In this document: in pieces, positions 30,308-51,735 of the stretch
Position numbering within the stretch: position 1 is the stretch's first letter
Layout of the letters: each line of letters begins with the position of its first letter
From: Synechococcaceae cyanobacterium
GTDB taxonomy: Bacteria; Cyanobacteriota; Cyanobacteriia; PCC-6307; Cyanobiaceae
Reading direction: 5' to 3'
DNA: 64,000 bases
NCBI GenBank assembly: GCA_947378425.1
Contig: CANCJV010000012.1
Location: 1 to 64,000 of the forward strand
The notes under the pieces: generated by a model
What the model saw: only the letters and a program-made list of their open reading frames with translations
Databases searched by the model: none
What the model was told of the DNA's origin: nothing
Program-made: the position numbers and the translations under genes

Positions 30308-30362
30308 GGCCGGATGGTATCGAGGCGAGGGCGAGGAGGCCGGGGCGACATCCCCGGGGGCC

Positions 30363-30391: not shown

Positions 30392-30405
30392 CGCCCCTGG
30401 CAGCC

Positions 30406-31752
30406 ATGGTCTGGAGGTTTCTGCAGGGTCTGGCGCCTGCCACGGTGATTCCCGGGCCATGGCGGGAGGCTGCCGCCTCGGACTCGCTGCGATCCGAGTC
30501 GCTGCGACGGCGGTTCACCCTGGCCTTGATCCTGGCGGCAATCACCGGGCTGACCTTTTCGCGGCTGTTCGCCGAAGGGCTCGCTGATCATCTGGACATG
30601 TTCGGCCACGAAACCCTGAGGGCTGTCCAGGCCTGGGAAAATTTCGGCTTCTGGGCCTGGGGTGGCTTCTTTCCCCTGGGCAATCATTACTTGCCCGCCG
30701 ATCATGTGATTCATTCCACTGAGATTTATCAGTCGTACCCGCCCCTGTATCTGTTGATTTATTGACCATCTTACCATTGGTTCGGTGAGGCCGGTTTTCA
30801 CGCCTTCAAGCTCGTCTGGTCGCTGGCCTATGCGGTGGTCATGGGGCTGTTGCTCGGCAACCTGGCTGATTGTTGTTTCACCAGAAAAAAGACGGGTTAT
30901 CGCCAGCTTGTGTTTGCGGTAGCCTATGTAATCACCATCACCAATCAGGCGGTTTTGCGCTATGTCCTGATTGACGAGCCTGACTATCTGGGACTGCTGC
31001 TGCTGTTGTTCGGTGTGGTGTTGCTGCGGCGCTGGTGGCGGCAGTCGGCGACCGCTGCTCGCAGGCCCTGGGGATTGTGGCTGGTCTTGTTGCTGGTCGC
31101 CTGGATCTATCCAATTCTCGGCGCTTTTTGCCTGCTGAGTGTCTTCGCGCTCCAGCGTCTGCGCCTGGAGGCACCGATCAGAGGCTCCCTGCGCAGTCTG
31201 CTGTTTCCCCTGGGCCTGGGTCTCCTGCTGTATTGGATGCAGCGAATCACCGCCAATCTGATCTTTCCGGATGGCCTCACAGGCAGCAACCTGTTTGATC
31301 GCATGGGGCTGACGGCTGCCACGACTCCCCATCACCATGGCGTGCTCGAGGGCTTGCGGCTGTTCATCTGGCAGAAGTCGGGTTCGGATGTGATCAGCTC
31401 GCACATGGCGCTGTCGCAGGTGTTGGAGCATGCAGCGATCTGGATTGTTGGGGTGATTCTGTTCGCGCTGGTGATGGCTCGGCTCAAGGGCGGCCGCCGC
31501 CAGCTGCTCCTGATTCTGGCCGCAGCCCAGATGTGGCTGTTTCTGCCGCTGTTGCACCAGTCTGTGGCTTCTCACGATTGGATTTATGCCATCCATTTCG
31601 TGCCCACGGTGGTGCTTGGCTGGGTGGGGGCCCTGGCCTGGCTGATGCCGCAGCGCCAAGGTGAAGTGTTCGCTGCCTGGATGCTGGGATTTGTCGGAAT
31701 GTTGATCTGGTCAATTCAGATCAGATTTTTTATGGTCGCCTATCTGCAGTGA
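30406..31752 (+). pseudogene. Membrane glycosyltransferase-like gene with in-frame TGA
   Basis: One reading frame runs from ATG 30406 to TGA 31752 (about 448 residues) apart from a single TGA at 30763-30765. The frame is unchanged on both sides, so this is a nonsense change, not a frameshift; a TGG (Trp) would restore it. The N-terminal part has a basic region and then ADHVIHSTEIYQSYPPLYLLIY, typical of GT-C/PMT-like membrane sugar transferases, and the part after the stop begins PSYHWFGEAGFHAFKLVW and has about eight more helices. Downstream codons look normal. It is a recent pseudogene, or a sequencing error in an intact gene. Function is inferred as polysaccharide sugar transfer. Confidence 0.7.
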
Positions 31753-31859
31753 GCCATGCCGATCGATCCAGTCGCCCTGATCCGGCGCTCCGGATCGTCC
31801 CGCTTTCCAGGCAGGCCTGAAGATTGTTGATGGCAACAACTCAGCCTGCGGCTGGGGTC

Positions 31860-31889
31860 TTGGTGCAACTTCGGTATGTGCTCTAGATT
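31860..31889 (+). promoter_or_regulatory. Candidate promoter for the GT8-like gene
   Basis: TTGGTG at 31860-31865 and TAGATT at 31884-31889 are spaced by 18 bases in a locally AT-richer stretch, ending 20 bases before the ATG at 31910. The gap of 157 bases behind the broken gene makes a separate promoter for the following run of overlapping glycosyltransferase genes likely. Confidence 0.35.
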
Positions 31890-31909
31890 GCCCTTGATTT
31901 CCGCCCCTG

Positions 31910-32626
31910 ATGGTCTTGGTCGCCTCTGAGCAAGCTCCCATTGCCATCTTCATCGGCTACGACCCGCGGGAACGCGCTGCCACGGCTGTGCTGATCGACA
32001 GCCTGTTCCAGCACAGTTCCCTGCCGCTGTCGATCACGCCGATCGTCACGCCCCAGTTGGAGGCCCTGGGGGTGTTCCGGCGGCCGCGCGATCCCAAGCA
32101 GGCCACGGCCTTCTCCTTCACCCGCTTCCTGGTGCCCCACCTGATGGGCTATCGGGGCTGGGCCATCTTCATGGACTGCGACATGCTCTGCCGTGGCGAC
32201 ATCGCCGAGCTCTGGGCCGAACGGGATGATCGCTATGCCGTGCAGTGCGTGCAGCACGAGCACAATCCCAGCGAGGCGGTGAAGTTCCTGGGCGAGCCCC
32301 AGAGCCCCTATCCCAAGAAGAACTGGAGCTCCCTGATGCTCCTGAACTGCGAGCGCTGCACAGCCCTCACACCCGACTACGTCAACACCGCCAGCGGCCT
32401 GGAGCTGCATCGTTTCCACTGGCTGGCCGGCGATCAGGAGATCGGTGCCCTCGAGGAGCGCTGGAACCACCTAGTGGATGTGCAGGATCCCGCCCGTGCC
32501 CAAGGGGCGAGCCTGTTGCACTGGACCCTCGGCGGCCCCTGGTTCCGGGAGCAGGCCTTCATGGGTGGGGCCCTGGCCGCGGAGTGGTATCGGGCCCGCG
32601 ATGACGCGATGCGCCTGTGGGATTGA
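31910..32626 (+). CDS. Glycosyltransferase, GT-A fold, GT8-like
   Basis: This 238-residue soluble protein begins with the strand-loop AIFIGYDPRERAATAVLIDSL of GT8-like enzymes and has the metal-binding DxD motif within IFMDCDMLCRGDIAELW near residue 85-100. NWSSLMLLNCERC near 140 and ASLLHWTLGGPWF near 205 complete the usual order of acceptor and donor residues. It heads a series of closely packed glycosyltransferase genes and its stop overlaps the next start. Sugar and acceptor are not predictable. Confidence 0.82.
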   Translation: MVLVASEQAPIAIFIGYDPRERAATAVLIDSLFQHSSLPLSITPIVTPQLEALGVFRRPRDPKQATAFSFTRFLVPHLMGYRGWAIFMDCDMLCRGDIAELWAERDDRYAVQCVQHEHNPSEAVKFLGEPQSPYPKKNWSSLMLLNCERCTALTPDYVNTASGLELHRFHWLAGDQEIGALEERWNHLVDVQDPARAQGASLLHWTLGGPWFREQAFMGGALAAEWYRARDDAMRLWD

Positions 32627-33702
32627 GCGAGTCAACCGCCGGCCAGGAAGCTGTCCTGAGCATCGTCACGGTGTGCATGAATCGCTTGGAGCACCTGATC
32701 AGCACGGCACAGCGGGTGGCCGCCTGGCCCGGTCATCAGGAGCATCTGATCGTTGACTGGAGCAGCGCGGTGCCGGTTCGGCGGGAGCAGCTGCCGGCGG
32801 ACTCCCGCATCCGGCTGTTACGGGTCGCTGGCGAGCCCAGTTGGAACCTGTGCCGGGCCTACAATTTTGCCGTGGCCCGGGCCCTGGGGGACTGGATTCT
32901 CAAGCTCGATGCCGATACCTGGCCCACGCCCAGCTGGCCCACCGATGCCCCGCCCGCTGGGGCCCTGGGTCTGATGGCGTCCGGGCCGGGGCCGGCGGAG
33001 GGGCCTGCCCCGGCCTTCGGCAGCGGTCCTGAGGGACGCAAAGGTCAGTTCCTGATGCCGCGCCAGCTGTTTGCCGCCGTGGGTGGCTTCAACGAGCACC
33101 TGATCGGCTACGGCTTTGATGACAAGGATCTGCAGGCGAGGCTGGCGGTGCACACGGGCCAGGGCGCAGTGGCGATTCCCGAAGCCTGGATCGGCGTGAT
33201 CGCCCACTCCGATGCGGAGCGGGCGGGCCAGGGCCGTTCCGGCCGGCCGGATTGGCTGGAGGCGTCACGGGGGCTGGCGGCGATGCGGGCCTCGCAGCTG
33301 AGCAACCGCTTGCTGGCGGCGCACTGCCCCTGGAGCGGCCGGGCGGCCGGGTCGCGTTACAGGGAGATTGCTCCAGAGGTCTGGGAGGTGGAAGCGGCCT
33401 CAATCCCCCAGGTTTCGGCCGAGGTGGCCGAGGAGATCGACCATGCCCGGCGCATGACCTTCTGGGGCTTCTTCCTGGCAATTCCGGAGCCCTGCCTGGA
33501 GATCCTGCCGTTTTCCCTCTTCCCGCCTGCCCAGGCCGGTCGCTGGCGGGTGCGGTTCTGGCACCGCCTCTGGTGGGTTTTCGGTCGCCCCCTGGTGGAG
33601 CTGCCGGTGTGGGCCCTGGTGCTGGGGCGCCAGGGGCTCCTGGCCCTGCGGGGAGGGCCGGGGCGGCGTCAGTCCCGGTGCAGCACGCCGCTGGGTTCAT
33701 GA
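32617..33702 (+). CDS. Family 2-like glycosyltransferase, tandem copy 1
   Basis: This is a 361-residue GT-A enzyme. LSIVTVCMNRLEHLIS near the N-terminus starts the fold, IVDWSSAVPV, then DADTWPTP carries the DxD, and FGSGPEGRKGQFLMPRQLFAAVGGFNEHLIGYGFDDKDLQAR near 130-175 gives the C-terminal GWGxED-like part of galactosyltransferase-type GT2 enzymes (YGFDDKDL). It starts at GTG 32617, or at the TTG 32623 overlapping the previous stop. It is about as long as the next gene, to which it is clearly related. A surface-polysaccharide role is inferred. Confidence 0.82.
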   Translation: MGLSESTAGQEAVLSIVTVCMNRLEHLISTAQRVAAWPGHQEHLIVDWSSAVPVRREQLPADSRIRLLRVAGEPSWNLCRAYNFAVARALGDWILKLDADTWPTPSWPTDAPPAGALGLMASGPGPAEGPAPAFGSGPEGRKGQFLMPRQLFAAVGGFNEHLIGYGFDDKDLQARLAVHTGQGAVAIPEAWIGVIAHSDAERAGQGRSGRPDWLEASRGLAAMRASQLSNRLLAAHCPWSGRAAGSRYREIAPEVWEVEAASIPQVSAEVAEEIDHARRMTFWGFFLAIPEPCLEILPFSLFPPAQAGRWRVRFWHRLWWVFGRPLVELPVWALVLGRQGLLALRGGPGRRQSRCSTPLGS

Positions 33703-34715
33703 GCCTGTCGATCGTGACGGTGTGCATGAACCGGCGGGAGCACCTGCTGGCCACGGCCGCTCAGGTGGCGGCCTGGCCCCACCACGACGAACACCTGATC
33801 GTCGATTGGAGCAGCCGCGAGCCCCTGCGGCGTCAGGAGCTGCCGGAAGACCCCCGGCTGCGGTTGCTGCGGGTGGAAGGGGAAGATCGCTGGAACCTCT
33901 GCCGCGCCTACAACTTCGCGATGGCCAGGGCGCAAGGCGCCGTCTTTCTCAAGCTCGATGCGGATGCCTGGCCTGAAGCCTGCTTTGATCCTCGGGCAGC
34001 GGAGCTTCATGTCGAGGTCGTTTCCCTGGGCCAGCAGGACCGGCTGGCCTGTGCCTTCGGCAGCGGCGGCGGTGGACGCCGGGGCCAGATGCTGATCGCC
34101 CGCCAGCTGTTTGAGGCGGTGGGGGGGTTCCACGAATTGCTGGAGGGCTACGGCTTCGACGACAAGGATCTCTGGGGTCGGCTGGCCCAGGTCATGGGCA
34201 GTGAACCGGCCCGGATCCCCTCCCACTGGTTCGATGTCCTGCCCCACAGCGATGCCAGTCGGGGTGGGGGAAAGGGGGCTGGTGGTGCCCTGGCGGCTTC
34301 CTGTGGTCTGGCGGGCCTGCGCGCCTCCCGCTTGGCCAACCGCCTCCAGGTTGCCCATACCCCCTGGAATGCCAGCCGGGCACGCTCCGCCTATCGGCTT
34401 CTGAGCCCCGACCGCTGGTGCGTTGATCCGGCCACGGTGCCCGTCGCCGAGGTGGAGATCAGCGATGAGATCGACCATGCCCGGCGGATGGAGTTCTGGA
34501 GCTGTTTCCTGGCCATCCCGGACATTTTTCTCGAGGAGCTGCCGGTCAAGCTGGTGCCGCCGCCTTGCGGCGGCCAGTGGCCGGTACGTTGGTGGCATCG
34601 CTGCTGGTGGCAGAGCGGTCGCCGCCTGCTGCACCTGCCCGTGGGCCTGCTCTCCCTCAGTCGGGGCCAGTTGACATCGCTGCGTGCCGCGATCCGCTCC
34701 CGTGGGCCGCGATGA
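33699..34715 (+). CDS. Family 2-like glycosyltransferase, tandem copy 2
   Basis: A 338-residue paralog of the preceding gene. Shared blocks in the same order are SIVTVCMNRxEHL, HLIVDWSS, WNLCRAYNFAxARA, the DAD motif (here KLDADAWPEACF), EGYGFDDKDLWGRL, HTPWNASRARSAYR, and EISDEIDHARRMEFW followed by FLAIP. The ATG overlaps the previous stop as ATGA. The pair differs mainly in the loop after the DxD, which in other GT2 enzymes helps choose the donor, so the two may add different sugars. A C-terminal basic tail follows. Confidence 0.82.
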   Translation: MSLSIVTVCMNRREHLLATAAQVAAWPHHDEHLIVDWSSREPLRRQELPEDPRLRLLRVEGEDRWNLCRAYNFAMARAQGAVFLKLDADAWPEACFDPRAAELHVEVVSLGQQDRLACAFGSGGGGRRGQMLIARQLFEAVGGFHELLEGYGFDDKDLWGRLAQVMGSEPARIPSHWFDVLPHSDASRGGGKGAGGALAASCGLAGLRASRLANRLQVAHTPWNASRARSAYRLLSPDRWCVDPATVPVAEVEISDEIDHARRMEFWSCFLAIPDIFLEELPVKLVPPPCGGQWPVRWWHRCWWQSGRRLLHLPVGLLSLSRGQLTSLRAAIRSRGPR

Positions 34716-35740
34716 GCAGGGTGGGAGAGCTGTGGGGCCGTCGACGCCCGCGACTGGCAGTGTATTTCTGCTTCAACGCGGTGAACCTGGCGGCGGCCAC
34801 GGTCCAGAGGTTGCAGGAGCAGCCCCGGGATCGCGCGATCGCGCTGTATGAGCCGACGCGGCTGGAGGCTGGCTCCCGGCCCGCCTGGGTGTGGGGCGGT
34901 GGGCTCGGCTGGCTTCCCGCCGGCCCGCTCACCCTGCTGCTGCTGTTGCTGCTGTGCCGGCTGGGTCTGGTGCGCCGCATCTACATCCCCCACCGCAGGG
35001 AGGGGGGAAGGCTGCTGGCGGCGATTCTGGCGAGGGTTCCCCAGATCCTGCTGCTCGACGACGGCCTGGATCAGTACCGCGGTGAGCCCAGGGCGCTGCG
35101 GCCCGACCAGTTCCCCTCTGGCACCCCGCTCTATCTCTTCTCTGATGCGGTGGCTTTTCGGGCCCCTTGGTGCCGTCATTTCGCCTGTCGTGAGCTGGGT
35201 CTGTTTCCCGTTGCCGCAGCTCAGCTCCCGCCAGGCCTGACGGCGGCCAGCCTGCTGATCGATGCGCCGGGGGTCGAGCTGCTGTGGCGCCAGGCCGGGG
35301 CCATTCCCCGGCCCCTGCTGCTGCTCGCCCATCCGTACCCCGGCAAGCGACGTTGGCAGGGAACGGGGGATCTGGAGCGCTTGCCGGGGTGCTCAGCCGA
35401 GGAGCTGATTCAGGGTTTCCCGGATCCGGTGGCCGTCGGCGAAAGCTTCACCCTGATCATCGGCCTGACCCGCCGCGATGCGGCCTGGCCGCTGTGGGTA
35501 GGCTTGCCGGCCACAGTTGATGCCCATTTCCGCTCCATGGTGCGAGCTCTCTGCGCCTGCCGCTCGGCCACGGTTCTTGAGGAGGCACCGGAGTCTCAGG
35601 AGATGAGGCGGATGGGGCAGCTCGCCGCGACGGATCTGCCGGCTGAGACCGATCAGCAGATTGATCTTGAACAGCGAAGGGATTCTGAAGCGGCAACCGG
35701 TGTTGCGCTCAGATCTTGGTCCACCAGAATCGAATCGTGA
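34712..35740 (+). CDS. Sialyltransferase-like glycosyltransferase (GT52/polyST pattern)
   Basis: The product (342 residues) shows the three-part pattern of CMP-sugar sialyltransferases: ILLLDDGLDQY near residue 113 (DDG), LLLAHPYPGKR near 205 (HP) and GESFTLIIGLTR near 243 (Ser/Thr segment). The first strand LAVYFCFNAVNLAAATVQRL fits a GT-B fold. It starts with ATGA overlap with the preceding gene. The frame extends upstream in the neighbouring gene, but a start there would overlap 150 bases. It may belong to the same family as the gene at 26751-27911, although the two are strongly diverged. Function is inferred. Confidence 0.6.
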   Translation: MSRVGELWGRRRPRLAVYFCFNAVNLAAATVQRLQEQPRDRAIALYEPTRLEAGSRPAWVWGGGLGWLPAGPLTLLLLLLLCRLGLVRRIYIPHRREGGRLLAAILARVPQILLLDDGLDQYRGEPRALRPDQFPSGTPLYLFSDAVAFRAPWCRHFACRELGLFPVAAAQLPPGLTAASLLIDAPGVELLWRQAGAIPRPLLLLAHPYPGKRRWQGTGDLERLPGCSAEELIQGFPDPVAVGESFTLIIGLTRRDAAWPLWVGLPATVDAHFRSMVRALCACRSATVLEEAPESQEMRRMGQLAATDLPAETDQQIDLEQRRDSEAATGVALRSWSTRIES

Positions 35741-36606
35741 CGGAGTTGATTCCGGTCACTGTGGTGATTCACACCCTCAATGAGGAGCGCAATCTGCCCC
35801 AGGCCCTGCGTTCGGTTCGCTCCTGGGCCGATGACATTCTGGTGTGTGATATGCATAGCGACGATGACACCGTTGCTGTCGCCAGGCGCTTTGGTGCCCG
35901 GGTGTGTCTGCACGAACGCCTCGGCTTCGCCGATCCGGCCAGGGCCTTTGCCATCGCCCAGGCTCGGCATGACTGGATCCTGGTGCTGGATGCCGATGAA
36001 CTGATCCCGCTTCCACTGGCCAGGATCCTGGCGCAGGTCGTGGCCGAGGACCGAAGCGATATCTGCTGGATCCCAAGACTCAACTATCTCCTGGGAGAGC
36101 CGATCAATGGCATGGGTTGGGGTGCGGATGCAGACGCCCAGATGCGCTTGTTCAGGCGTGATGCTGTTGTTGTGACGGCCGACATTCATCGATTCTTTCA
36201 TGCGGCTTCCGGGGCAAGAGAGCGGCGATTGAATTTTCGCGAGCATGGCGCCATCGTGCACTTTAACTATATCGATATTACTCAATTCGTCGACAAGCTC
36301 AATCGCTATACCAGCATTGAGGCTTCCCAGGCTGATCGACTCGGCAAGCCCGCCTGGTTGCCGCTTGCGATCGCCATCGCGCTTCGTGAGGCGATGCGCC
36401 GCTATGTCTTTGGCGGTGGCTATAAATTTGGTTGGCGCGGGGTTTATCTCACCATCCTGATGGTCGGTTATCGCCTGGCTGTGCAGGCCAAATTGCGGGA
36501 GCTCAGGGCAGGCAATACGCGGGCTTCCGTGAATGCCCACTACAGAATCGAGGCGGAAGCCTATCTGAAGGCCTGGGATTCCGCCGAACAGAACCGATTG
36601 TCCTGA
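35737..36606 (+). CDS. Family 2 glycosyltransferase, WaaE/KdtX-like
   Basis: This 289-residue GT-A enzyme has the N-terminal VTVVIHTLNEERNLPQALRSVRSWADDILVCDMHSDDDTVAVARRFGARV motif of LPS-core beta-glucosyltransferases of the WaaE group, the DxD in LVLDADELIP near 88, and a C-terminal hydrophobic half (GVYLTILMVGYRLAVQAKL). GTG at 35737 overlaps the previous stop as GTGA; the TTG at 35716 would overlap by 25 bases. The base composition is less GC-rich near 36150-36290. It likely adds an inner sugar to the lipid A-proximal part of a glycolipid, by family resemblance only. Confidence 0.82.
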   Translation: MTELIPVTVVIHTLNEERNLPQALRSVRSWADDILVCDMHSDDDTVAVARRFGARVCLHERLGFADPARAFAIAQARHDWILVLDADELIPLPLARILAQVVAEDRSDICWIPRLNYLLGEPINGMGWGADADAQMRLFRRDAVVVTADIHRFFHAASGARERRLNFREHGAIVHFNYIDITQFVDKLNRYTSIEASQADRLGKPAWLPLAIAIALREAMRRYVFGGGYKFGWRGVYLTILMVGYRLAVQAKLRELRAGNTRASVNAHYRIEAEAYLKAWDSAEQNRLS

Positions 36607-36897
36607 GTGGCCATCGGCTCCGGTGCCATCCAGGCTTCCGGGTCGCCTGAATCCACTCGGCAGGCGGTGTGCGCTCCAGAGCTTCGGGGCCGGCATCCCG
36701 TCAGCCATGGCCGTCCCGGGCCGGGGCCTCCGAGTTGCGTGGCATTCGCCTGGCCCGAGGCAGCGCCATGAGGGTGCTGGCTCAGGTGGTGGGCGAGCAG
36801 GGGGGGGCTGGATACGCTCCTCTCCATCCCTTTGTGGCCGGGGATGCAGGCGCTGCACTGGCTTGAGCCATACACTCAACAGCCTGCAGTTGTCTCG
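36607..36897. other. Gene-free gap before GtrII-like gene
   Basis: About 290 bases with no supported gene or RNA. The real start of the next gene may be later than 36898, which would lengthen this gap. No terminator with a T-tract or clear promoter was found. Confidence 0.4.
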
Positions 36898-38523
36898 ATG
36901 CCGCCTCTCACGGAGTCCCGGTCTCTGCGTCCAACGGCGATGGACCCAGCTGCATGGATGGCGGGCTGGACGATCCGCGATGCTCGCCATGGGTTTCTGG
37001 TGTTCCTGGGGCTGTTTCTGGCGATTCACTGGCAGGAAGTCAGCTCTCCCACCTGGAATGTGGATGACTGGGCCCTGATCGGTGAACCGATTGGCCAGGC
37101 CAGTCAGAGCAGGCCGGCCTGGGATCTGATCTATTCCCTGCTGTTTCAGAACAGTTTTTCGCCGTTCTTCGGCTGGTTGCTGGCTGCGGGCTCGCTCTAT
37201 GCCATGGCGGCGGCCACGGCGGTGTTCTGTCCGCTGATCACGCCGGCCTGGGCCTGTTTGCTGGCCCTGGTGGTGAGCCTGCACAGCTACACCCTCGACC
37301 TGTTCAATTTCAGCTTTGCCATCGGGCTGTATCTGCTGCCGGCGGCTCTTTCGATCTGGGGTGGTGTGCTGATGGGCTATGGCCCGCCGTTGCCGCTGCT
37401 CGGACGCCGTTGGCTGGACTGGCTGCTGGGGGTGCTGATGCTGATGGTGGCGATGGGCATCTATCAGCCCACCGGTTACCTCGGCATCGCTCTGCTCGGT
37501 TGGCAGGCTCTGGCCCGGGCCCTCAATCAACACCATTTCGCCCGCGCGGCGGCCCTGCGCCTGCTGGCCGGTGTCAGTGTCGGCGGGATTCTTTATTACA
37601 TCTGGGCGCTGATCATGCTGCAGGGCCAGGAGGCGAACTCCCGCACCGGCTTCTCGGGTCTGCCTCGTTTTCTGGAGAAGTTGACCGCTCTCGGCGTTTA
37701 CAAGGAGATCTACAACACCAAGGTTTCATTGGCTTCGACCGCGCCCCAGTTCATCCTGTCGATCACCTTTCTGCTGTTGCTGCTGGTGCTCAGCGGCTGG
37801 CTGCTGCGTCAGCAGCAGAGCCGGCGGCAGCGGCGCCAGCGCCTGGCCTGGCTCTGGTTCGCGGCCCTGTTCCTGACCCTGTTGCCGTTGTTGCTGTTCT
37901 ACCTGCTGAGCTCAGGTTTCCCGTCCAGGGCCTTCTGTCTCGGCAATCTCGGCATCGGCAGTTTCAGCGTGATCGCCCTGGCGACGCTGCAATCCTCGAG
38001 TCGGGGGAGGGCCTGGTCGCGGTTACTCGTGGCGCTGTTGATCGTCTTCTACCTGATTCCCCAGGCTGCCTTTGCCTCCAGGGTCTGGGAATTGACCCAA
38101 TTGCTCGAGCGCCGCGACCTGGCCCTGGCCCAGGCGATTGCGGCGGATGTCCGCGCTGAGGCCAGGCGCACCGGTCTGGCGGCGGATGCGTTCGAGGTGT
38201 TCGGCACCACGGAGCGCAATGAGTCCTTCCCTCACTGGAGCAGTGTCGGCGAATCGGCCTTCCGTCAGAGCTGGAGCATCGAGGCGATCTTCCGGCAGCT
38301 GCTGCGGGTTCCCGTGCGCCACATCGCCTATCGCCACGAGGGCAATGAACAGCAGGTGCGGGCCTCCTTGCCCCCCTGTCGGGCCTTCCCCGAGCTCGGT
38401 TCGATCGTGCGTCACGGGGACCGCTGGCTGGTCTGCCTGGAGGCCAACGGTCCGTCGGCCGAGACCAGAGCCGATCTGATCCAGCCCGCTGCAGTGCCAC
38501 CCCAACCCGCTGGGCCTCGGTGA
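36898..38523 (+). CDS. GtrII-like membrane glucosyltransferase
   Basis: The product (about 541 residues) has roughly ten membrane helices and a periplasmic-type C-terminal part. The first loop after the first helix contains EVSSPTWNVDDWALIG, like the DDW region that starts GtrII-type O-antigen glucosyltransferases, and the pattern YQPTGYLGIALLGW near 195 fits the same family. The final ~120 residues are soluble. The start is uncertain: ATGs at 36898 and 36940 both precede the first helix. It is convergent with the gtrA-gtrB genes on the other strand, 31 bases from gtrA. I infer the enzyme that moves the sugar from undecaprenyl carrier to polysaccharide. Confidence 0.65.
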   Translation: MPPLTESRSLRPTAMDPAAWMAGWTIRDARHGFLVFLGLFLAIHWQEVSSPTWNVDDWALIGEPIGQASQSRPAWDLIYSLLFQNSFSPFFGWLLAAGSLYAMAAATAVFCPLITPAWACLLALVVSLHSYTLDLFNFSFAIGLYLLPAALSIWGGVLMGYGPPLPLLGRRWLDWLLGVLMLMVAMGIYQPTGYLGIALLGWQALARALNQHHFARAAALRLLAGVSVGGILYYIWALIMLQGQEANSRTGFSGLPRFLEKLTALGVYKEIYNTKVSLASTAPQFILSITFLLLLLVLSGWLLRQQQSRRQRRQRLAWLWFAALFLTLLPLLLFYLLSSGFPSRAFCLGNLGIGSFSVIALATLQSSSRGRAWSRLLVALLIVFYLIPQAAFASRVWELTQLLERRDLALAQAIAADVRAEARRTGLAADAFEVFGTTERNESFPHWSSVGESAFRQSWSIEAIFRQLLRVPVRHIAYRHEGNEQQVRASLPPCRAFPELGSIVRHGDRWLVCLEANGPSAETRADLIQPAAVPPQPAGPR

Positions 38524-38554
38524 CCCTGCTGGCCGCGGCTTGCGGCAGCACGGC

Positions 38555-38953
38555 TCAGGCTGTTGATCGGTAGCTCAGGCGCGTCAGCAGGAAGGAGGTC
38601 GCGGCCCATTGCACCAGAGTGATCAGGGCAATGGCGAAGCGATCGATCGCCAGATGCTGCAAGCCCCCGGCCGCGGCGAGGCTGAGCCCGAGGCAGATCA
38701 GCTGGATGGCCGCATAGCGCCCCAGCAGGGCCAGCCGGAAGGGTACGCGGAAGCTGTAGCGGGCATGCAGCACCGCATTCAGCACCAGGCAGATCGCGCC
38801 AGCCACGGCCACGGCGGCGGTGGCGCTGCCCCCGGCCTGGCTCACCAGGGCGAACAGGGCCAGGTACAGCAGTTCACCACAACCGCCCACCAGCAGAAAA
38901 CGCACCAGCTGATGCTGCAGGGGGCGCCGCAGCCGCCGCAGGGCCCTCTTCAC
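38555..38953 (-). CDS. GtrA-like flippase
   Basis: A 132-residue membrane protein with four hydrophobic helices. It begins KRALRRLRRPLQHQLVRFLLVGGCGELLYLALFALV, the usual GtrA entrance, and has NAVLHARYSFR near 60-70, the NYxxxRxxxF element of this family, before helices 3 and 4. GtrA moves undecaprenyl-linked glucose across the membrane. The GTG at 38953 overlaps the gtrB-like stop as GTGA. The frame is open further upstream but there it lies inside gtrB on another frame. Its partner genes are present on both sides. Confidence 0.85.
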   Translation of the reverse strand: MKRALRRLRRPLQHQLVRFLLVGGCGELLYLALFALVSQAGGSATAAVAVAGAICLVLNAVLHARYSFRVPFRLALLGRYAAIQLICLGLSLAAAGGLQHLAIDRFAIALITLVQWAATSFLLTRLSYRSTA

Positions 38954-39930
38954 AGCGGCTCGCGGCCGCCGAGGGGCTCCAGGCTGCGCACGAAGGATTG
39001 GGGCCTGCCGCTGACGGTCAGGAAGATCCGGCCCAAGTATTCCCCCAGCATGCCGATCAGGAGGCATTGCAGACCACCGAACAGCAGGATCGCGCAAATG
39101 ATTGACAGCCAGCCCTGCACCTGACTGCCCTGCAGCAGGCTCTGCAGCACCAGCACCACCAGGGTCACGCCGCCGGCCAGGGCCAGCACCACCCCCAGCA
39201 GGGAGGCCAGCCGCAGGGGCATGATCGAGAAGCTGGTGAAGATGTTCAGCCACAGCCGGATCAGGCGCCGCAGGTTGTAGCCGCTGTCCCCCGCTTCGCG
39301 CCGGTCGTGCTGCACCTTGAGGCTGCCGATGGCGGTGGTGTAGAGCGACAGCAGGCCGTCGATGTAGGGATAGGGGCCGCGATAGTCGGCCGCCTGGTGG
39401 GCCACCACACCGGCCACGCAGCGGAAACTGGAGAGATAGAAGCGATCCGGCAGATCCAGCAGCCAGTTGGCGGTGCGATTGGCGAAGCGACTGCCCAGGT
39501 TGCGCCAACCGGCGTGTTGTTTCTGGCGGTAATCGCCGTAGACCACATCCAATTCTTCGTCCACGGCTTTGCGCCAGAGGCGCAGGCCCTCCTCCGGTGG
39601 ATTCTGGAGATCGTCATCGAGGTTGATCACATGGCGGCCCCGGGCATGGCGGTAGCCGGTGAGCACGGCCTGGTGTTCGCCGAAGTTGCGGCCATGGCGG
39701 ATCAGCACCCCCTGCAGCGGGCTGTTCTTCAGCCGCCGGCGCAGCCGGGCCACCGTGTCGTCGGGACTGCCGTCATCGACCAGCACCAGCTCCCAGGGGC
39801 CCGGCACGCCCAGCTTTTCCAGGCGACTGATCAGGGCCTCGACGCTGCCACTGCTGCGGTACAGGGGGATCACCAGGCTGAGGATCGGCGTGGGATCGCC
39901 GCTGTTCGGCGGGGATGGCTGCTCCGGCAT
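38950..39930 (-). CDS. GtrB-like undecaprenyl-phosphate glycosyltransferase
   Basis: This is a 326-residue GT2 enzyme that likely loads a sugar on undecaprenyl phosphate. ILSLVIPLYRSSGSVEALI starts the GT-A domain, LVLVDDGSPDDTVARLRR follows near 48-65, and VINLDDDLQNPPE near 105 holds the metal-binding DDDLQ of the DPM1/GtrB/ArnC group. Two C-terminal membrane helices (about 230-255 and 267-290) and FLTVSGRPQSFVR after them match this group. It starts seven bases after the methyltransferase stop and overlaps gtrA by four bases, in one operon. Confidence 0.92.
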   Translation of the reverse strand: MPEQPSPPNSGDPTPILSLVIPLYRSSGSVEALISRLEKLGVPGPWELVLVDDGSPDDTVARLRRRLKNSPLQGVLIRHGRNFGEHQAVLTGYRHARGRHVINLDDDLQNPPEEGLRLWRKAVDEELDVVYGDYRQKQHAGWRNLGSRFANRTANWLLDLPDRFYLSSFRCVAGVVAHQAADYRGPYPYIDGLLSLYTTAIGSLKVQHDRREAGDSGYNLRRLIRLWLNIFTSFSIMPLRLASLLGVVLALAGGVTLVVLVLQSLLQGSQVQGWLSIICAILLFGGLQCLLIGMLGEYLGRIFLTVSGRPQSFVRSLEPLGGREPL

Positions 39931-39937
39931 GGACGGC

Positions 39938-40717
39938 TCAGGTGGGGATGGGGGCCCTGGGGCCGGCGGGCCGGCGCGCCTGCAGCAGCAGGCTGCTGCC
40001 CCAGGGAAGGGGCAGCAGCCTGGACAGCTGCTCCTCCAGTTCCAGCAGGGCGACCAGGAGGCGATTGAGCCAGGCGGGCGGAGGCAGCACGGCGGAGCCG
40101 GAAGGCTCGCCGGTGGCGCCCTGTTCCCCCTGCTCCAGCCTCGCCTGCAGCCAGAGCAGCGGCATCAGCCAGCTGTTCCAGTAGCGCAGGTCTTCCACCG
40201 CAAGGCCGGCGGCCTCGGCCAGCTGGCGCAGCTCGCTGGGGCGAAAGCGGCGGGCGCCAAGCACGCGCCGGTCGTGGCGGCGGGCCAGTCCAGGCATGGC
40301 GGCGACATTGAGCAGCAGCAGGCCCCCCGGCTGCAGCAGGGCCGCCATCGCCGCCATCGCCCGGGGGGGATCCACGTTCCGGTGGTACAGCACGTCCATC
40401 GAGAGCACCAGATCGAAGCGCTCCGGCCAGGTCGCCAGATCGTGCACCGAAGCGCGTCGCACCGGCAGGCCGCGTTGCCTGCAGTACTGCAGCGCCACGG
40501 GGCTGGCATCGCAGCCGCTGCACTGGGCTACGGCCGCTTCCCGGGCCAGGGTCTGCAGCAGGCCGCCGGTGCCGCAGCCGGCATCGAACACCGTCAGGGG
40601 GTGGCCCCGGCGGCGGGCTTCCCGGTGCAGCCTGGTCAGCACCCGGCGCTGCAGGCTGCGATACCACCAGTGCCCGCCTTCCTGCTCTGCCAGCACGTGA
40701 TACTCCGCCTCCTGCAT
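39938..40717 (-). CDS. SAM-dependent methyltransferase
   Basis: The product (259 residues) is a class I methyltransferase. Motif I is VFDAGCGTGGLLQTL near residues 43-57, motif II the acidic CSGCDASPVAL near 66-76, and motif IV/post I FDLVLSMDVLYHRN near 100; the front segment EYHVLAEQEGGHWWYRSLQRRVL is common in sugar or lipid methylases. It starts with ATG, overlapping the aminotransferase stop by one base (TGATG), and is followed by gtrB. An O- or N-methylation of the sugar built by this operon is inferred. Confidence 0.88.
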   Translation of the reverse strand: MQEAEYHVLAEQEGGHWWYRSLQRRVLTRLHREARRRGHPLTVFDAGCGTGGLLQTLAREAAVAQCSGCDASPVALQYCRQRGLPVRRASVHDLATWPERFDLVLSMDVLYHRNVDPPRAMAAMAALLQPGGLLLLNVAAMPGLARRHDRRVLGARRFRPSELRQLAEAAGLAVEDLRYWNSWLMPLLWLQARLEQGEQGATGEPSGSAVLPPPAWLNRLLVALLELEEQLSRLLPLPWGSSLLLQARRPAGPRAPIPT

Positions 40718-41865
40718 CAGAGGCTGCCCGGCAGGTAGGGGTCGAGCCGTTGGCAGATCGCCTCGATCTGCGGCTCCTCCAGGAAGGGATGCAGGGGCAG
40801 GCTGAGGATTTCCTGCAGGCGAGCCTCGGTGCGGGGCAGGGGCCGGCCGGCGCCGAAGCGCTGCTGCACATAGGTGTGCTGGTGACAGGCCAGGGGGTAG
40901 TGCACCGCCAGCGGCAGCTCCGGGCCGGCGGCCTCCTGCAGCAGCCGCTGGCGTGGCTCGGCCGGCAGGCCGATCACATAGAGGTGATGGCTGTGGCGCC
41001 AGTCGCAGCCATCACCGGGCAGCCAGGCTCGGCCGGCCAGCCGCTGCTCGTACCAACGGGCCACCTGGCGCCGCTGGGCGATGCGCTGATCGAGATGGGC
41101 CAACTTGCCCAGCAGCACCCAGGCCTGCAGTTCGTCGAGCCGGCTGTTGACGCCGAATTGCACGGCCTGGCGCTCGCCGTCCCAGCCGTAGAAGCGCCGG
41201 CGGCGGCTGGTTTCGACATCGCCCTTGCGATTCACCACCAGGGCGCCGCCATCGCCGAAGGCGGCCAGATTCTTGGTGGGGTAGAAGCTGAAGGCCGCGA
41301 AGCGACCCCAGAGCCCGACCGGCTGGCCGGCCCAGGTGCTGCCGCAGGCCTGGGCGCAGTCCTCGATCAGGCTGACGCCATGGCGCTCACAGAGGGCGGC
41401 GATGGCCGGCAGGTCGCAGACTTCGCCGTACAGGTGCACGGCGATCACCGCCTTCACGCCCGCCACCCGGGTCAGCTGCTTGCCCAGATCCCCCACCGAC
41501 AGCACGGAGCGATCCCGTGCCAGATCTAGGAACATCGGCACTGCCTCCAGCCGCAGCACGGCCGCCACCGTGGCGTAGGCGGTGTGGGAGGGCAGCAGCA
41601 CCTTGTCGCCAGGGGCCACGCCACAACCCCGCAGGGCCAGCTCCAGGGCATCGGTGCCGCTGGCCACGCCCACGACCTGGTCGGCGGCCAGCTCGGGCGA
41701 GAGCCAGGCGGCGAAGCCGGCCTCGAAGGCGGCGACCCCCGGGCCGAGAATCAGCTGCCCGGATTCCCTCATCCGCTCCAGTGCCCCGGCCAGCAGATGG
41801 CCATCGCGCAGCAGTTCCTGCTGGGGGAAGTTGAACGGGTTCGCCATCGGGGATTGAACCGGCAT
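40717..41865 (-). CDS. DegT/DnrJ/EryC1/StrS-family sugar aminotransferase
   Basis: The product (382 residues) is a PLP-dependent aminotransferase that puts an amino group on a nucleotide-linked keto sugar. It shows GVASGTDALELALRGCGVAPGDKVLLPSHTAYATVAAV near 60-98, the cofactor region with LIEDCAQACGS near 155 and the PLP-binding Lys in FSFYPTKNLAAFGDGGALV near 183. The ending REILSLPLHP is also typical. ATG at 41865 overlaps the upstream epimerase stop (TGATG); an ATG at 41847 gives the conserved MANPFN start, so either is possible. Its neighbours are an epimerase, a methyltransferase and gtrB. Confidence 0.93.
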   Translation of the reverse strand: MPVQSPMANPFNFPQQELLRDGHLLAGALERMRESGQLILGPGVAAFEAGFAAWLSPELAADQVVGVASGTDALELALRGCGVAPGDKVLLPSHTAYATVAAVLRLEAVPMFLDLARDRSVLSVGDLGKQLTRVAGVKAVIAVHLYGEVCDLPAIAALCERHGVSLIEDCAQACGSTWAGQPVGLWGRFAAFSFYPTKNLAAFGDGGALVVNRKGDVETSRRRRFYGWDGERQAVQFGVNSRLDELQAWVLLGKLAHLDQRIAQRRQVARWYEQRLAGRAWLPGDGCDWRHSHHLYVIGLPAEPRQRLLQEAAGPELPLAVHYPLACHQHTYVQQRFGAGRPLPRTEARLQEILSLPLHPFLEEPQIEAICQRLDPYLPGSL

Positions 41866-42896
41866 CAGAGGTAGTGGGATTGGTGCTCGCGGTAGTAGGC
41901 GAGGGTGCGCTTCAGGGTGGCTTCGAGGTTGCGGGATGGCTGCCAGTCGGCAGCGCGATGAAAACGGTCGTAGCAGGAGTAGTAATCACCGATGTCGATT
42001 TTCTTGCGCTCGGCCGGGAAGTCCATCAGCTGGATTTCACCGGAGCCGTGCAGGCGGATCATCAATTCGGCCAGTTCTCTGAGGCTCAGCCGTTCATGGG
42101 AGCCGAGGTTGTAGGGCGTTGAGGCCAGTCCCTCCAGGGATCCAGCCAGCAGCAGGGCATCCACCACATCCTCGACGTCGTTGAAATCGCGCAATTGCTC
42201 ACCGCCCCAGACCTCAATCGGTTCGCCGGCCAGCAACTGGCGCAGCCAGATCCCGACGAAGGTCTGGCGGGCATCACGAATGCGCATGCGCGGCCCGATC
42301 GTGTTGGTGAGCCTGAGGATGCGGGTGCTGAGCCCGTAGACATCGGCGTAGAGACGATGATAGAGCTCGGCCGAAAGCTTATTGATGCCATTGACGTCGA
42401 CGGGTTCGACGGGATGGGATTCGTCCACCGGTAAATAGTGAGGCTTCCCATAGATCTGGCGTGTGCTCGCATAGACGATGCGGGCTTGGCGATTCACCCG
42501 CCGGCAGAGCTCCAGCAGGCTCAGCTGAGCCGTGCCGTTGATGGCGAGATCCGTTTCCGGATCATGCATCGAATCGAGATGGCTGGTCTGGCCGGCGAGA
42601 TTGAAAATGACATCTTTGTCTTTGAGCAAGGCCTCCAGGGAGTAGCGATCGCGGATGTCGGAGAGATTGATGCGAACCGCGTCTTCGTGGCCGTTCAGAT
42701 TGAAAAGATTCCCCCCGTACTGGGGGATCAGGCTGTCGACGATGGTCACCCGTGCGCCGAGCTGGCTCAGGCGGATGGCGAGGTTGGAGCCGATGAAGCC
42801 AAGGCCGCCGGTGATCAGGATTCTCAGGCCAGCCCAGTTGCCGAAGGGGCTGCTGCCGTCAGCCTTCGACGCCGGTCCCTGGCTGTCCACACGCAA
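41865..42896 (-). CDS. NAD-dependent sugar-nucleotide epimerase/dehydratase
   Basis: This 343-residue SDR enzyme has the nucleotide-binding loop ILITGGLGFIGSNLAIRL near 25-43 and a NAG-like NLAGQTSH segment near 100. The expected Tyr-x-x-x-Lys catalytic pair is not present: the aligned segment is VDVNGINKLSAELYHRLY near 170-187, where Asn stands at the place of Tyr. The Ser-containing strand IVYASTRQIYGKPHY precedes it. The start is TTG 42896 or GTG 42890. It is first in a five-gene operon (epimerase, aminotransferase, methyltransferase, gtrB, gtrA). The family is clear, but activity may differ from ordinary epimerases. Confidence 0.85.
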   Translation of the reverse strand: MRVDSQGPASKADGSSPFGNWAGLRILITGGLGFIGSNLAIRLSQLGARVTIVDSLIPQYGGNLFNLNGHEDAVRINLSDIRDRYSLEALLKDKDVIFNLAGQTSHLDSMHDPETDLAINGTAQLSLLELCRRVNRQARIVYASTRQIYGKPHYLPVDESHPVEPVDVNGINKLSAELYHRLYADVYGLSTRILRLTNTIGPRMRIRDARQTFVGIWLRQLLAGEPIEVWGGEQLRDFNDVEDVVDALLLAGSLEGLASTPYNLGSHERLSLRELAELMIRLHGSGEIQLMDFPAERKKIDIGDYYSCYDRFHRAADWQPSRNLEATLKRTLAYYREHQSHYL

Positions 42897-43009
42897 CGAT
42901 TAACAAGATTCAATTATGGCTTGTGGACCTCGGGCCCACGTGCCCTGAACTACCGCAGCCTGTGCCCTGGCCCGTTGTCGGTCGCTGTCCCTGGATCGGT
43001 TGCTGCGAT

Positions 43010-44080
43010 TCAGCTGCAGTCCTGCAGTACCCGCAGCACCTGCCGGGCGCTGGCGGCCCAGTTGAAGTGCGCCGCCCGGGCGGGCCCCGCCGTGCTCAGC
43101 CAGTGCGCCAGGGCGGGTTCGCGCTCCATCCGGCTGATCGCATCGGCGATCTCCGCAGGCGCCCGCGGATCCACCAGCAGGGCCGCATCGCCCACCACCT
43201 CCGGCAGGGCGCCGGCGCGGGCGGCGATCACCGGCGCGCCGCAGGCCATCGCCTCCAGGGCCGGCAGCCCGAAGCCCTCCCAGAGGCTCACCAGCAGCAG
43301 GGCCCGGCAGCGGTTCAGCAGCTCCAGCCGCTCCTGATCACTCACCCAGGCGATCCAGTCGCAGCGATCGCCGATGCCGAGCTCCGCGGCCAGGCGCTGC
43401 AGTGGCGGCGTGTAGCGAGCGTCGGGGGGGCCCACCAGCTTCAGCCGCAGCTCCCGAGCCGGATCGCTGACGGCGGCGAAGGCCCGCAGCACCCGGGCCA
43501 GATTCTTGTGGGGATCGTGGCGGCCCAGGACCAGGACAAACGGCTCGCGCTCCAGCCCCAGGGGCCGCAGTCGCCCCGGGTCGAAGCCCAGCCGGATCGG
43601 CAGCAGCCGCCGGGCCGGCACCCCCAGCCGGCCATGCACCTCCCGGGCGGTGGCCTCGGAGTTGCACAGCACCTTCACGGCCCGATGCAGCACCAGGGGC
43701 ACGTAGGCCAGGTGGTAGGCCAGCAGGGGGGTGAGCTGGGGGTAGCGCAGGGGCAGCAGGTCGTGGGCCAGCACCACCGAGCGCACCCCCCGCAGCAGCG
43801 GCGCCTCCGGCAGGGGCGAGAGCAGCAGCGGCGCCCCACTGGCGCGCAGCAGGCGCGGCAGCTGGTTCTGGGTCCAGCGCAGCCGGTCCAGGTGGCCGCG
43901 GCGGCCGTGCTGCGGCGAAAGGTTGGCGGGGATCGGCACGCTGCCGGGACGGTCGCCAGCCAGGGGATCGAGCAGGGGCACCAGATCCGGATCCAGGGCG
44001 GCCACCAGATCGCGGGCCACCACACCGATCCCCGTCGGCCTGGGGCTCAGGTAGCTGCCGTTGAAGAGGGCGAGGGGCAT
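43010..44080 (-). CDS. Family 4 glycosyltransferase
   Basis: The product (356 residues) is a retaining GT-B enzyme. The N-terminus shows SYLSPRPTGIGVVARDLVAAL, the glycine loop; the linker is VLCNSEATAREVHGRLGV near 140; the donor domain begins VLVLGRHDPHKNLARVLRAF near 190; and the sugar-binding motif LLVSLWEGFGLPALEAMACGAPVIAA lies near 265-290. The GT4 match is strong. It begins four bases after the stop of the upstream glycosyltransferase gene, forming a two-gene unit. Confidence 0.93.
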   Translation of the reverse strand: MPLALFNGSYLSPRPTGIGVVARDLVAALDPDLVPLLDPLAGDRPGSVPIPANLSPQHGRRGHLDRLRWTQNQLPRLLRASGAPLLLSPLPEAPLLRGVRSVVLAHDLLPLRYPQLTPLLAYHLAYVPLVLHRAVKVLCNSEATAREVHGRLGVPARRLLPIRLGFDPGRLRPLGLEREPFVLVLGRHDPHKNLARVLRAFAAVSDPARELRLKLVGPPDARYTPPLQRLAAELGIGDRCDWIAWVSDQERLELLNRCRALLLVSLWEGFGLPALEAMACGAPVIAARAGALPEVVGDAALLVDPRAPAEIADAISRMEREPALAHWLSTAGPARAAHFNWAASARQVLRVLQDCS

Positions 44081-44084: not shown

Positions 44085-45053
44085 TCAGGCGGGCTCCTGC
44101 AACACCATGACCATGGCTTGCAATACCGCCAGGCTGCGCCGGGGTCGCAGCGGCAGTCGCAGCAGGCTGAGCAGCAGCAGCCGCAGGCTGCGCAGCGCCA
44201 CCACCCAGCCGGGGCTGTAGCGGCGCAGGAAACGCAGATAGCTCAGGGTGGACAGCCGCAGGCGCCGCGGCCCGGAGGCCACGCTGCCGGTGCCCTTGCG
44301 ATGCACGATCAGCGGCTGCCGCAGCCACAGCACCGGTGCCCCCTGGCGGGCGAGGCGCCGGCAGAGGTCCATGTCCTCGTAATAGAGCGGAAAGCGTTCG
44401 TCGAAACGGACGGCGCCGGGCTGGGCCGCTGGCCGCAGGGCCAGGCTGCAGCCGCTCAGCCAGTCGAGGGCGATCGGCCCGGCCGGCTCGCTGAGCAGGG
44501 CGGCGCCCGGTTCCAGGCGCCGACCGCGAAAGGCGAGGCCGCCGCTGAACCAGCCGCCACTGGATTCGTAGCCCCCGGCGCCATCGGCGACGGCGGTGCC
44601 CACCACCGCCCGCGGCGGCAGCTGGCACAGCTGGGTCCGCAGGCAGGCCAGTTCCTCCCCGCCGGGCAGGCCGGTGTCGGGATTGAGCAGCCACACCCAG
44701 CCGTCCCAGTGCTCTGCGGCCAGCAGATCCAGGGCCCGATTGCAGCCCGCCGCGAAACCCTCTCCTTCGCCGCCCTGGATCGTCCGGATCCGCAGCCCGG
44801 GGGCGGCGTGGGTCAGCAGATCGCCATGCAGGGGTGCCGATTCAGGGCTGTTGTCCACCACCAGCCAGGCCTCGGGTGGATGGGACTGGGCCGCCAGATC
44901 CCTGGCCAGCGCTGGCAGCACCGCCGCGCTGCCGTAGGCCACCGTGACCACGGCGATCCGCTCCCTGTCGGCGTCAGGGTCGGTGGCGATGGTGGCGGCG
45001 TGAGGGAAAGTAGCGATGGGCGCGGCGTTCCTCTGGCCCGAGTTTCGCAGCAT
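44085..45053 (-). CDS. Family 2 glycosyltransferase, rhamnosyltransferase-like
   Basis: This GT-A protein of up to 322 residues shows RIAVVTVAYGSAAVLPALARDL, LVVDNSPESAP, and GEGFAAGCNRALDLL, then VWLLNPDTGLPG with the metal-binding Asp, DWLSGCSLALRPAA, and YYEDMDLCRRLARQGAPVLW, the classic ED-containing block of WbbL/rhamnosyltransferase-like GT2. The ATG at 45053 is back-to-back with the HIT gene's ATG (CATG), so the true start may be a later GTG near the VVTVAYG strand. It ends four bases from the GT4 gene start. Confidence 0.88.
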   Translation of the reverse strand: MLRNSGQRNAAPIATFPHAATIATDPDADRERIAVVTVAYGSAAVLPALARDLAAQSHPPEAWLVVDNSPESAPLHGDLLTHAAPGLRIRTIQGGEGEGFAAGCNRALDLLAAEHWDGWVWLLNPDTGLPGGEELACLRTQLCQLPPRAVVGTAVADGAGGYESSGGWFSGGLAFRGRRLEPGAALLSEPAGPIALDWLSGCSLALRPAAQPGAVRFDERFPLYYEDMDLCRRLARQGAPVLWLRQPLIVHRKGTGSVASGPRRLRLSTLSYLRFLRRYSPGWVVALRSLRLLLLSLLRLPLRPRRSLAVLQAMVMVLQEPA

Positions 45054-45555
45054 GTACGACCCCTCCAACTGTGGTGTCTGCCTGATTCATGGAGACCTGG
45101 CCGGCTCCGGCTTCACCCAGCCTTCGCTTGCCAGCGCGGCTGGACCCGGCGATCTGGCGATCGGTCGCTTCGGCCCCTGGCTGCTTCGCCACCATCCGCT
45201 GCCGGCGCCGCTGGTGGGCTGGCTGATCCTCGACAGCCTGCGTCATGTCGGCGGCCCGGCCGACTTCAATGCGCTCGAATCCGCCGGCCTGGGGCCGATG
45301 TTGCAGCGCAGTTCCGCCCTGGTGCGGGAGTTGAGCGGCTGTCAGCGGGTCTATGCGGTGGCCTTCGGCGAGGGGGCGCGGCATTTTCATCTGCATCTGA
45401 TCCCCCGCCATGGCTCCGATCCGGCCACCGAGAGCTGGCGCGTGGCCGATCTCTACCGGGCGGTGAGCGCCGGTGAGCGCCCGGAGGCGGATGCGGATTC
45501 GGTGTTGCAGCTGGTGCGGCGGGCTCGTCAGGCCAGCGCGGACTGGCAGCTCTAG
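45052..45555 (+). CDS. HIT-family hydrolase
   Basis: The product (167 residues) is a histidine-triad nucleotide hydrolase or transferase. The HxHxH motif is GARHFHLHLIPRHG near 110-123, and a CGVC pair at residues 8-11 is the usual zinc half-site of the long HIT form, which cleaves dinucleoside polyphosphates or similar nucleotides. It starts at ATG 45052. Its role near the sugar genes is not clear; it is 27 bases upstream of kdsB and could be cotranscribed with it. Confidence 0.85.
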   Translation: MYDPSNCGVCLIHGDLAGSGFTQPSLASAAGPGDLAIGRFGPWLLRHHPLPAPLVGWLILDSLRHVGGPADFNALESAGLGPMLQRSSALVRELSGCQRVYAVAFGEGARHFHLHLIPRHGSDPATESWRVADLYRAVSAGERPEADADSVLQLVRRARQASADWQL

Positions 45556-51734: not shown

Positions 51735-51735
51735 C

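Follow-up and report, generated by a model that had tools for sequence, protein, structure and literature searches.

The window, a stretch of 64,000 nucleotides comprising positions 1-64,000 of contig CANCJV010000012.1 (GCA_947378425.1) of a Synechococcaceae cyanobacterium, carries at 36898-42896 a six-gene module. It encodes an extended short-chain dehydrogenase/reductase (SDR), a DegT-family aminotransferase, a methyltransferase, the polyprenyl-phosphate glycosyltransferase GtrB, the candidate flippase GtrA and a GtrII-like membrane protein that is predicted to be a glycosyltransferase of the GT-C type. The module is real and conserved, it is patchily distributed and it is found at more than one genomic site. 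Most probably it constitutes an Arn/Gtr-type, horizontally exchanged cassette for donor supply and transfer in surface glycan decoration.

Gene order and recurrence at two genomic sites

Five of the genes lie on the minus strand in the order SDR, DegT, methyltransferase, GtrB and GtrA (Table 1). The SDR/DegT and DegT/methyltransferase junctions each have one base in common, methyltransferase and GtrB are spaced by 7 bases, and the GtrA frame, read from its likely GTG start at 38953, shares 4 bases with the end of GtrB. The four frames from SDR to GtrB are long and have positive codon scores. The GtrII-like gene is convergent, with 31 bases between its end at 38523 and the end of GtrA at 38555. 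The original prediction, a five-gene operon with all junctions overlapping or within seven bases and a GtrII-like gene 31 bases away, was confirmed to the base, and the arrangement is not due to chance as the same order and orientation are present in other genomes. A sigma-70 promoter scan returned 0 matches (0.5 expected by chance); 7 terminator-like matches were obtained (2.8 expected) and were not used as support.

A search with the SDR at E 1e-60 identified 29 places in 28 of 400 genomes of the family, and the surroundings of all 29 were inspected. SDR, DegT and GtrB follow one another on one strand in the window and at 17 further loci (16 genomes), at one of these, L045, with a 1.3-kb gap. 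The 17 core loci contain the methyltransferase in 14 cases, a detected GtrA in 15 and a convergent GtrII-like gene in 7. The GtrII-like gene of L020 is present only in pieces, GtrA of L017 is weak and split in two pieces, and a contig end cuts two of the SDR places (L037 and L048). Six of 201 family genomes encode the GtrII-like protein, and all six are among the 28 with the SDR. It had been claimed that the GtrII-like gene belongs to gtrAB, and in relatives this linkage holds, with 8 linked copies including that of the window (one in pieces) versus 2 orphan copies. Gene families and recurrence speak for the proposed system of the gtrAB type, which includes nucleotide-sugar enzymes of its own and a transferase resembling GtrII. 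A phylum-wide GtrB search at the strict threshold of 1e-75 returned 4 of 339 genomes, the genome of the window and three of its genus. Genome G124 carries two modules on one contig; the first has GtrA in two pieces, and the second (L018; contig 54, 45-51 kb) is partly decayed: a stop interrupts its SDR, and its DegT is split over two frames.

The donor genes occupy a second site, between FabG and GroEL2, in four genomes (G208, G113, G005 and G090), where the order is SDR-DegT-GtrB-GtrA-methyltransferase. The GC content of the module at this site is 0.559, 0.599 and 0.587 (three measured) versus 0.706-0.721 for the flanks. FabG was located in 13 genomes, of which G000 and G274 were left out of the comparison of this site; in all seven other genomes fetched, FabG and GroEL2 are adjacent, 324-432 bases apart. 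In G163, one of these seven, the module is located at the PcrA site. In relative G062 (single contig) PcrA, whose match contains one in-frame stop, stands next to GT4-GT2-HIT-KdsB, and 8 kb compared at that place showed no DNA match to window positions 30308-43146; one GT8-like gene (31937-32620) matches G062, but beyond KdsB. The SDR search at 1e-60 gave nothing in G062, which lacks the module but has GT4 and GT2 beside KdsB. This comparison fits an insertion in the window and a loss in G062 alike. We infer that the cassette has been transferred between genomes. Integration linked to a tRNA was considered and rejected, as the window contains no tRNA.

The FabG-GroEL2 site also differs in the membrane protein that accompanies the donor genes. 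In G208 it is an intact protein of 524 amino acids that matches GT87 weakly (19.5 bits, cut-off 25); the same gene is present in two broken frames in G113 and as a short remnant in G005. G090 encodes a 415-amino-acid protein that has no Pfam match and no match to the G208 protein at E 1e-5. The model of this neighbour (locus L045; 8 sequences, predicted local distance difference test (pLDDT) 75.8) gave structural matches of which all 50 rows listed are GT-C enzymes or GT-C-containing complexes, with Z-scores of 20.8-12.8 (ArnT 19.6). Judged by the models, unrelated GT-C proteins can adjoin the donor genes, so that the donor genes would be kept while the GT-C changes. The same combination of conserved donor genes and an exchangeable final transferase is described for Gtr systems, where in Shigella phages gtrA and gtrB are conserved and gtr(type) is exchanged (PMC3259042).

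Predicted functions of the encoded proteins

The SDR matches PF01370 with 152.5 bits and contains the glycine motif for nucleotide binding (GGLGFIGS and relatives, alignment A1). The tyrosine of the YxxxK motif is replaced by Asn169, and Asn169, Gly170 and Lys173 are invariant in 15 of 15 aligned sequences (A1). Asparagine is found at this position in 56 of 56 SDR matches with at least 40% identity, a set in which some genomes are counted twice as L072-L084 largely repeat genomes of L014-L058. The only match of lower identity (30%, L038) represents a different SDR, which has a residue other than asparagine there, and two other SDRs of the window (51679-52677 and 52725-53702), which served as controls, retain the tyrosine. 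The extended SDRs WbpM and PglF are active although methionine replaces the tyrosine (PMC8987622), and loss of the tyrosine therefore does not imply loss of SDR function. In contrast to these, the module enzyme carries asparagine, a case that a term search of the available part of PMC8987622 did not find, and its nearest solved relatives are GalE and UDP-glucuronate decarboxylase.

The aminotransferase matches PF01041 with 279.7 bits, and its pyridoxal phosphate (PLP)-binding Lys198 is conserved in 58 of 58 matches. The best solved relative is 7b0d (by its title a glutamine-scyllo-inositol transaminase), followed by 2oga, 4qgr, QdtB and WbpE. Of these, 2oga, QdtB and WbpE act on 3-keto sugars, at C3. 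The match to WbpE (E 4e-48) is better than that to ArnB (2e-36), and the NCBIfam ArnB model gave 143.7 bits, below its cut-off of 631. By sequence relationship, the DegT product is likely a 3-amino sugar. As DegT keeps its PLP lysine and the neighbouring enzyme belongs to the methyltransferase families Methyltransf_23/11/25, it may fairly be inferred that an amino, methylated sugar is formed.

GtrB matches PF00535 with 76.2 bits and PHROG GtrB with E 2.4e-53. Its nearest solved relatives, aligned over almost the full length, are ArnC (E 7e-43) and then Synechocystis sll0501 (E 1.6e-32), a glucose enzyme; the NCBIfam ArnC equivalog scored 158.2 bits, far below its cut-off of 529 bits. GtrA matches PF04138 with 31 bits (cut-off 26.1) and has no PHROG match. 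A GtrB-family GT2 linked to a GtrA-family protein is found in the window and in relatives, GtrA being assigned by Pfam only. In a GtrB tree the cyanobacterial copies stand apart from those of Alphaproteobacteria with modest support (94/80); the direction of transfer is not readable from this tree because the outgroup branch is very long and 33 of 66 alphaproteobacterial rows were used.

The GtrII-like protein of the window has no match to a Pfam glycosyltransferase, even at E 10. PF14264 (Glucos_trans_II, cut-off 30) is passed by its 64% identical orthologue L016 (49.3 bits) and by the 54% identical paralogue L021 encoded elsewhere in the window's own genome (30.6 bits); the window protein itself has a match to the PHROG family "GtrC-like O-antigen conversion translocase" with E 2.5e-5. 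The label GtrII-like, assigned earlier, is borne out in this way through relatives, without a Pfam match of the window copy itself. An AlphaFold2 model was calculated from 9 sequences (pLDDT 69.2, predicted template modelling score 0.68). Structural matches in rows 1-40 (Z 13.9-8.1) are GT-C enzymes or complexes with one, whereas the next row has Z 4.6. The GT-C status of the rows was judged by entry title and includes oligosaccharyltransferase/translocon complexes and glycosylphosphatidylinositol (GPI) transamidase; chain 9n9j_I was taken to be a GT-C subunit. This Z-scored comparison is a re-examination of Foldseek's own candidates; in Foldseek alone, 8 of the first 10 rows are GT-C or GT-C-containing and the other 40 rows listed are mostly different membrane proteins. 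The protein is therefore predicted to be a GT-C enzyme, and the PF14264 matches of its orthologue and paralogue together with the structural matches point to a linked GT-C transferase as in three-component Gtr systems.

In the proposed pathway, the SDR would form a keto-nucleotide sugar, which DegT would aminate, probably at C3. The methyltransferase may methylate the sugar at N or O, before or after its loading onto polyprenyl phosphate by GtrB; GtrA would flip the lipid-linked sugar, and the GT-C enzyme (GtrII-like here, an unrelated GT-C elsewhere) would attach the sugar, in the periplasm, to a surface glycan. The acceptor would most likely be a lipopolysaccharide (LPS) or capsule that contains 3-deoxy-D-manno-oct-2-ulosonic acid (Kdo), a guess based on the Kdo and glycosyltransferase genes that flank the window copy.

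Distant copies, phages and neighbouring genes

Distant copies were collected with a GtrB-alignment scan of one genome per species (84,980 species), of which the best 80 of 586 loci were analyzed: L071-L084 are cyanobacterial and L085-L150 are 66 loci of Alphaproteobacteria with 46-53% identity. Of these 66 loci, 64 have a methyltransferase relative immediately upstream of GtrB, from which both genes appear to be an old functional pair, and 59 have a protein of about 110 amino acids, related to six reference copies, immediately downstream of GtrB. The SDR-DegT pair is present in 13 loci, in stretches of differing length, and neither GtrA near GtrB nor the GtrII-like protein was detected in any of the 66. 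The small protein of L100, the sole copy scanned by Pfam, matches EamA with 43.8 bits (cut-off 28.2). A small protein of the EamA/SMR (small multidrug resistance) type would consequently stand where GtrA would be expected, and the flippase type would differ between the phyla. Large membrane proteins flank several of these loci; four of them were scanned and had no Pfam glycosyltransferase match.

L071 (CALPNT020000135.1), filed as Bifidobacterium breve, encodes a GtrB 93% identical to that of the window together with GtrA and a GtrII-like gene and is most likely a mislabelled cyanobacterial bin. Two Azospirillum plasmids, TSH58_p06 (L153) and AZO_p6 (L154), carry an SDR-DegT pair whose SDR is 60% identical to that of the window; transposases of the IS5 or IS256 type lie nearby, as do genes for methyltransferases or glycosyltransferases, and no GtrB is annotated alongside.

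An origin from phages was rejected. Neither a search of 50,697 phage records nor a pattern scan of IMG/VR revealed a relative of the GtrII-like protein, GtrB is at most 34% identical among the 30 of 124 phage matches listed, and the SDR at most 33% among the 15 of 298 listed and 34% in IMG/VR. A defence system was likewise rejected, as PADLOC on the six module proteins gave only a partial mad2 match of the methyltransferase. The suggested link to phages was not substantiated by these searches: they gave no tie beyond the general role of surface sugars, and an effect on phage sensitivity is possible. Two IMG/VR contigs (L151 and L152) encode a GtrB of 47-48% identity, in L152 with the methyltransferase upstream; these are either phage cargo or bacterial contamination.

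Table 1. Positions of the module genes and of other features in the window
Feature	Position	Strand	Basis
GtrII-like GT-C membrane glycosyltransferase, candidate final transfer step	36898..38523	+	PF14264 in orthologue/paralogue, PHROG, predicted model
GtrA-type flippase candidate, 132 aa from GTG	38555..38953	-	PF04138
GtrB/ArnC-like polyprenyl-phosphate glycosyltransferase	38950..39930	-	PF00535, PHROG GtrB, solved relatives
S-adenosylmethionine (SAM)-dependent methyltransferase, GtrB pair partner	39938..40717	-	Methyltransf_23/11/25
DegT-family PLP aminotransferase, possibly 3-aminotransferase	40717..41865	-	PF01041
Extended SDR (nucleoside diphosphate-sugar oxidoreductase), Asn169 for catalytic Tyr	41865..42896	-	PF01370
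GT4 glycosyltransferase	43010-44080	-	upstream of SDR
GT2 glycosyltransferase	44085-45068	-	upstream of GT4
Accessory segment, absent at same place in relative G062	30461..43009	.	DNA comparison
Other accessory-segment genes, partly glycosyltransferase-like	31910..36606	+	Pfam scan
GT8-like 31910; GT2/GT7C 32617 and 33252; GT2 35716	accessory segment	+	Pfam scan

GT4 and GT2 lie on the same strand as the module, with 113 bases between the SDR and GT4 and 4 bases between GT4 and GT2, and both may be on one transcript with it. Among the glycosyltransferase genes of the accessory segment, the plus-strand frames 34565-35740 and 30835-31752 have no Pfam match; the four relatives L014, L016, L017 and L038 each have a counterpart of 34565-35740 beside the GtrII-like gene. 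Kdo genes flank the region, kdsA at 21610 and kdsC at 22456 (21610-23031) on one side and kdsB at 45583 (45583-46353) on the other, all above the NCBIfam cut-off. A 2015 review describes cyanobacterial LPS, in the part available, as lacking Kdo with exceptions (PMC4515613), and a Kdo-containing glycan would therefore itself need proof here.

Alternative explanations and relation to known systems

The module would act in the manner of both the Gtr and the Arn systems; by its parts, it belongs to the Gtr type, to which donor genes have been added, and is not an Arn pathway. With the Gtr systems of Shigella and Salmonella phages and genomes it shares a GtrB-family synthase, a GtrA-family flippase and a GT-C transferase. 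It differs in the additional SDR, DegT and methyltransferase genes, in its predicted donor, which would not be glucose, in the position of the convergent GtrII-like gene outside the operon, and in that no phage context, typical though not essential for Shigella/Salmonella Gtr, was found. According to the original statement, glucose is the only sugar used in gtr clusters; this is contradicted by Klebsiella, in which galactose is added, and by the pentofuranoses of Citrobacter, next to Ara4N (4-amino-4-deoxy-L-arabinose) for ArnE/ArnT (PMC11127046). The systems of Citrobacter youngae O1/O2 likewise use a lipid-phosphate sugar, a small EmrE/ArnE-like flippase and a GT-C enzyme, and O2 has an SDR in its locus; however, this sugar is a pentofuranose derived from phosphoribosyl pyrophosphate (PRPP), the SDR keeps YxxxK, and the available part of the source names no aminotransferase or methyltransferase for the system (PMC11127046). 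The authors of that study state that they know of no further epimerase in a system for O-antigen side-chain glycosylation (PMC11127046); here SDR, aminotransferase and methyltransferase appear to belong to one such system. The gsf cluster has GtrA, and the DegT genes in the part of that source available are named in other clusters (PMC13390465). No account of the present gene set was found in the titles and abstracts searched (open-licence literature, mostly narrow searches).

Several observations weigh against a single conserved pathway as proposed here. The methyltransferase is missing from 3 of the 17 core loci, 8 of the 29 SDR places have DegT and no detected GtrB (as adjacent pairs in 5 cases, with a nearby DegT on the opposite strand in 3), L057 has no GtrB within 2.6 kb, and 53 of the 66 alphaproteobacterial loci lack the SDR-DegT pair in the stretch examined; as the methyltransferase or GtrB is absent at several SDR places, the module genes are not obligatorily one pathway. 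Orphan GtrII-like copies of 54-55% identity exist in the window's own genome (L021; G000 contig 10, 36975-38501) and in G163 (L022; contig 74), with no GtrA or GtrB match within 20 kb around either; these paralogues may transfer the sugar from the same lipid-linked donor to a different acceptor. The confidence of the GtrII-like model is modest, Foldseek returned nothing under E 0.001 with it, and a sequence search of solved structures with the GtrII-like profile gave no match. NCBIfam ranked the 4-aminotransferase PseC first for DegT (176.9 bits, cut-off 423.5), which disagrees with a 3-amino product, and the SDR, being without the usual catalytic base, might perform another reaction. The GC content of the window segment (0.659 versus 0.663 and 0.701) shows no clear anomaly, and a recent arrival of the window copy is therefore not supported. 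Against this background, the cassette of donor supply and transfer remains the likely reading, while its most detailed form is put forward tentatively and is somewhat more doubtful than not: a mobile, serotype-conversion-like cassette in which the Asn-bearing SDR of a new catalytic type and DegT would provide a 3-amino nucleotide sugar that is methylated, loaded and flipped, with strains keeping the donor genes and altering the outcome through a swap of the terminal GT-C, and with an SMR-type flippase in place of GtrA for the same donor chemistry in Alphaproteobacteria.

The SDR, DegT and methyltransferase genes might instead represent a neighbouring O-antigen or capsule sugar pathway, with GtrA, GtrB and the GtrII-like protein performing an ordinary Gtr glucosylation. 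Glucose systems are known to contain members of both the GtrII-like and the GtrB family, and the SDR-DegT pairs that lack a detected GtrB, in the family and on the Azospirillum plasmids, would agree with such a separation. However, the donor genes also accompany GtrB and GtrA at the FabG-GroEL2 site, there with other GT-C partners, the methyltransferase adjoins GtrB in nearly all alphaproteobacterial loci analyzed, and GtrB is closer to ArnC than to sll0501, which makes this explanation unlikely.

In the Arn pathway, ArnA, ArnB, ArnC, ArnD, ArnE, ArnF and ArnT place Ara4N on lipid A. The module resembles it in combining an SDR, a DegT aminotransferase, an ArnC-type loader, a small membrane protein and a GT-C transferase, and it might add a 4-amino pentose or similar sugar to lipid A or core, altering charge and not O-antigen type. 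ArnC is the best solved relative of GtrB, UDP-glucuronate decarboxylases are among those of the SDR, NCBIfam places DegT nearest a 4-aminotransferase, the alphaproteobacterial relatives carry an EamA/SMR-type protein as in ArnE, and ArnT is among the structural matches of the GT-C models. A lipid A modification of this kind is nevertheless rather improbable: a scan of the six module proteins and of three neighbours found no formyltransferase or deformylase, a methyltransferase is present here, the window GT-C has no Pfam ArnT/PMT match at E up to 10, DegT is closer to 2oga, QdtB and WbpE than to ArnB, the SDR lacks the catalytic tyrosine, and cyanobacteria have GtrA. Even less probable is a secreted protein or an exopolysaccharide as target in place of LPS. 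Protein O-mannosyltransferases and oligosaccharyltransferases do occur among the structural matches, and the direct neighbours at the FabG-GroEL2 site are not LPS genes; but the window copy lies amid glycosyltransferase and Kdo genes, and relatives of the GtrII-like protein pass the GtrII model.

If the proposed cassette for surface glycan decoration holds true, lipid-phosphate-dependent surface decoration would be widened from simple sugars to an amino, methylated sugar made by the cassette itself. Picocyanobacteria would thereby gain a plug-in way to alter the coat that is met by phages and grazers, and the SDR family with asparagine in place of tyrosine poses a question of enzymology across two phyla.

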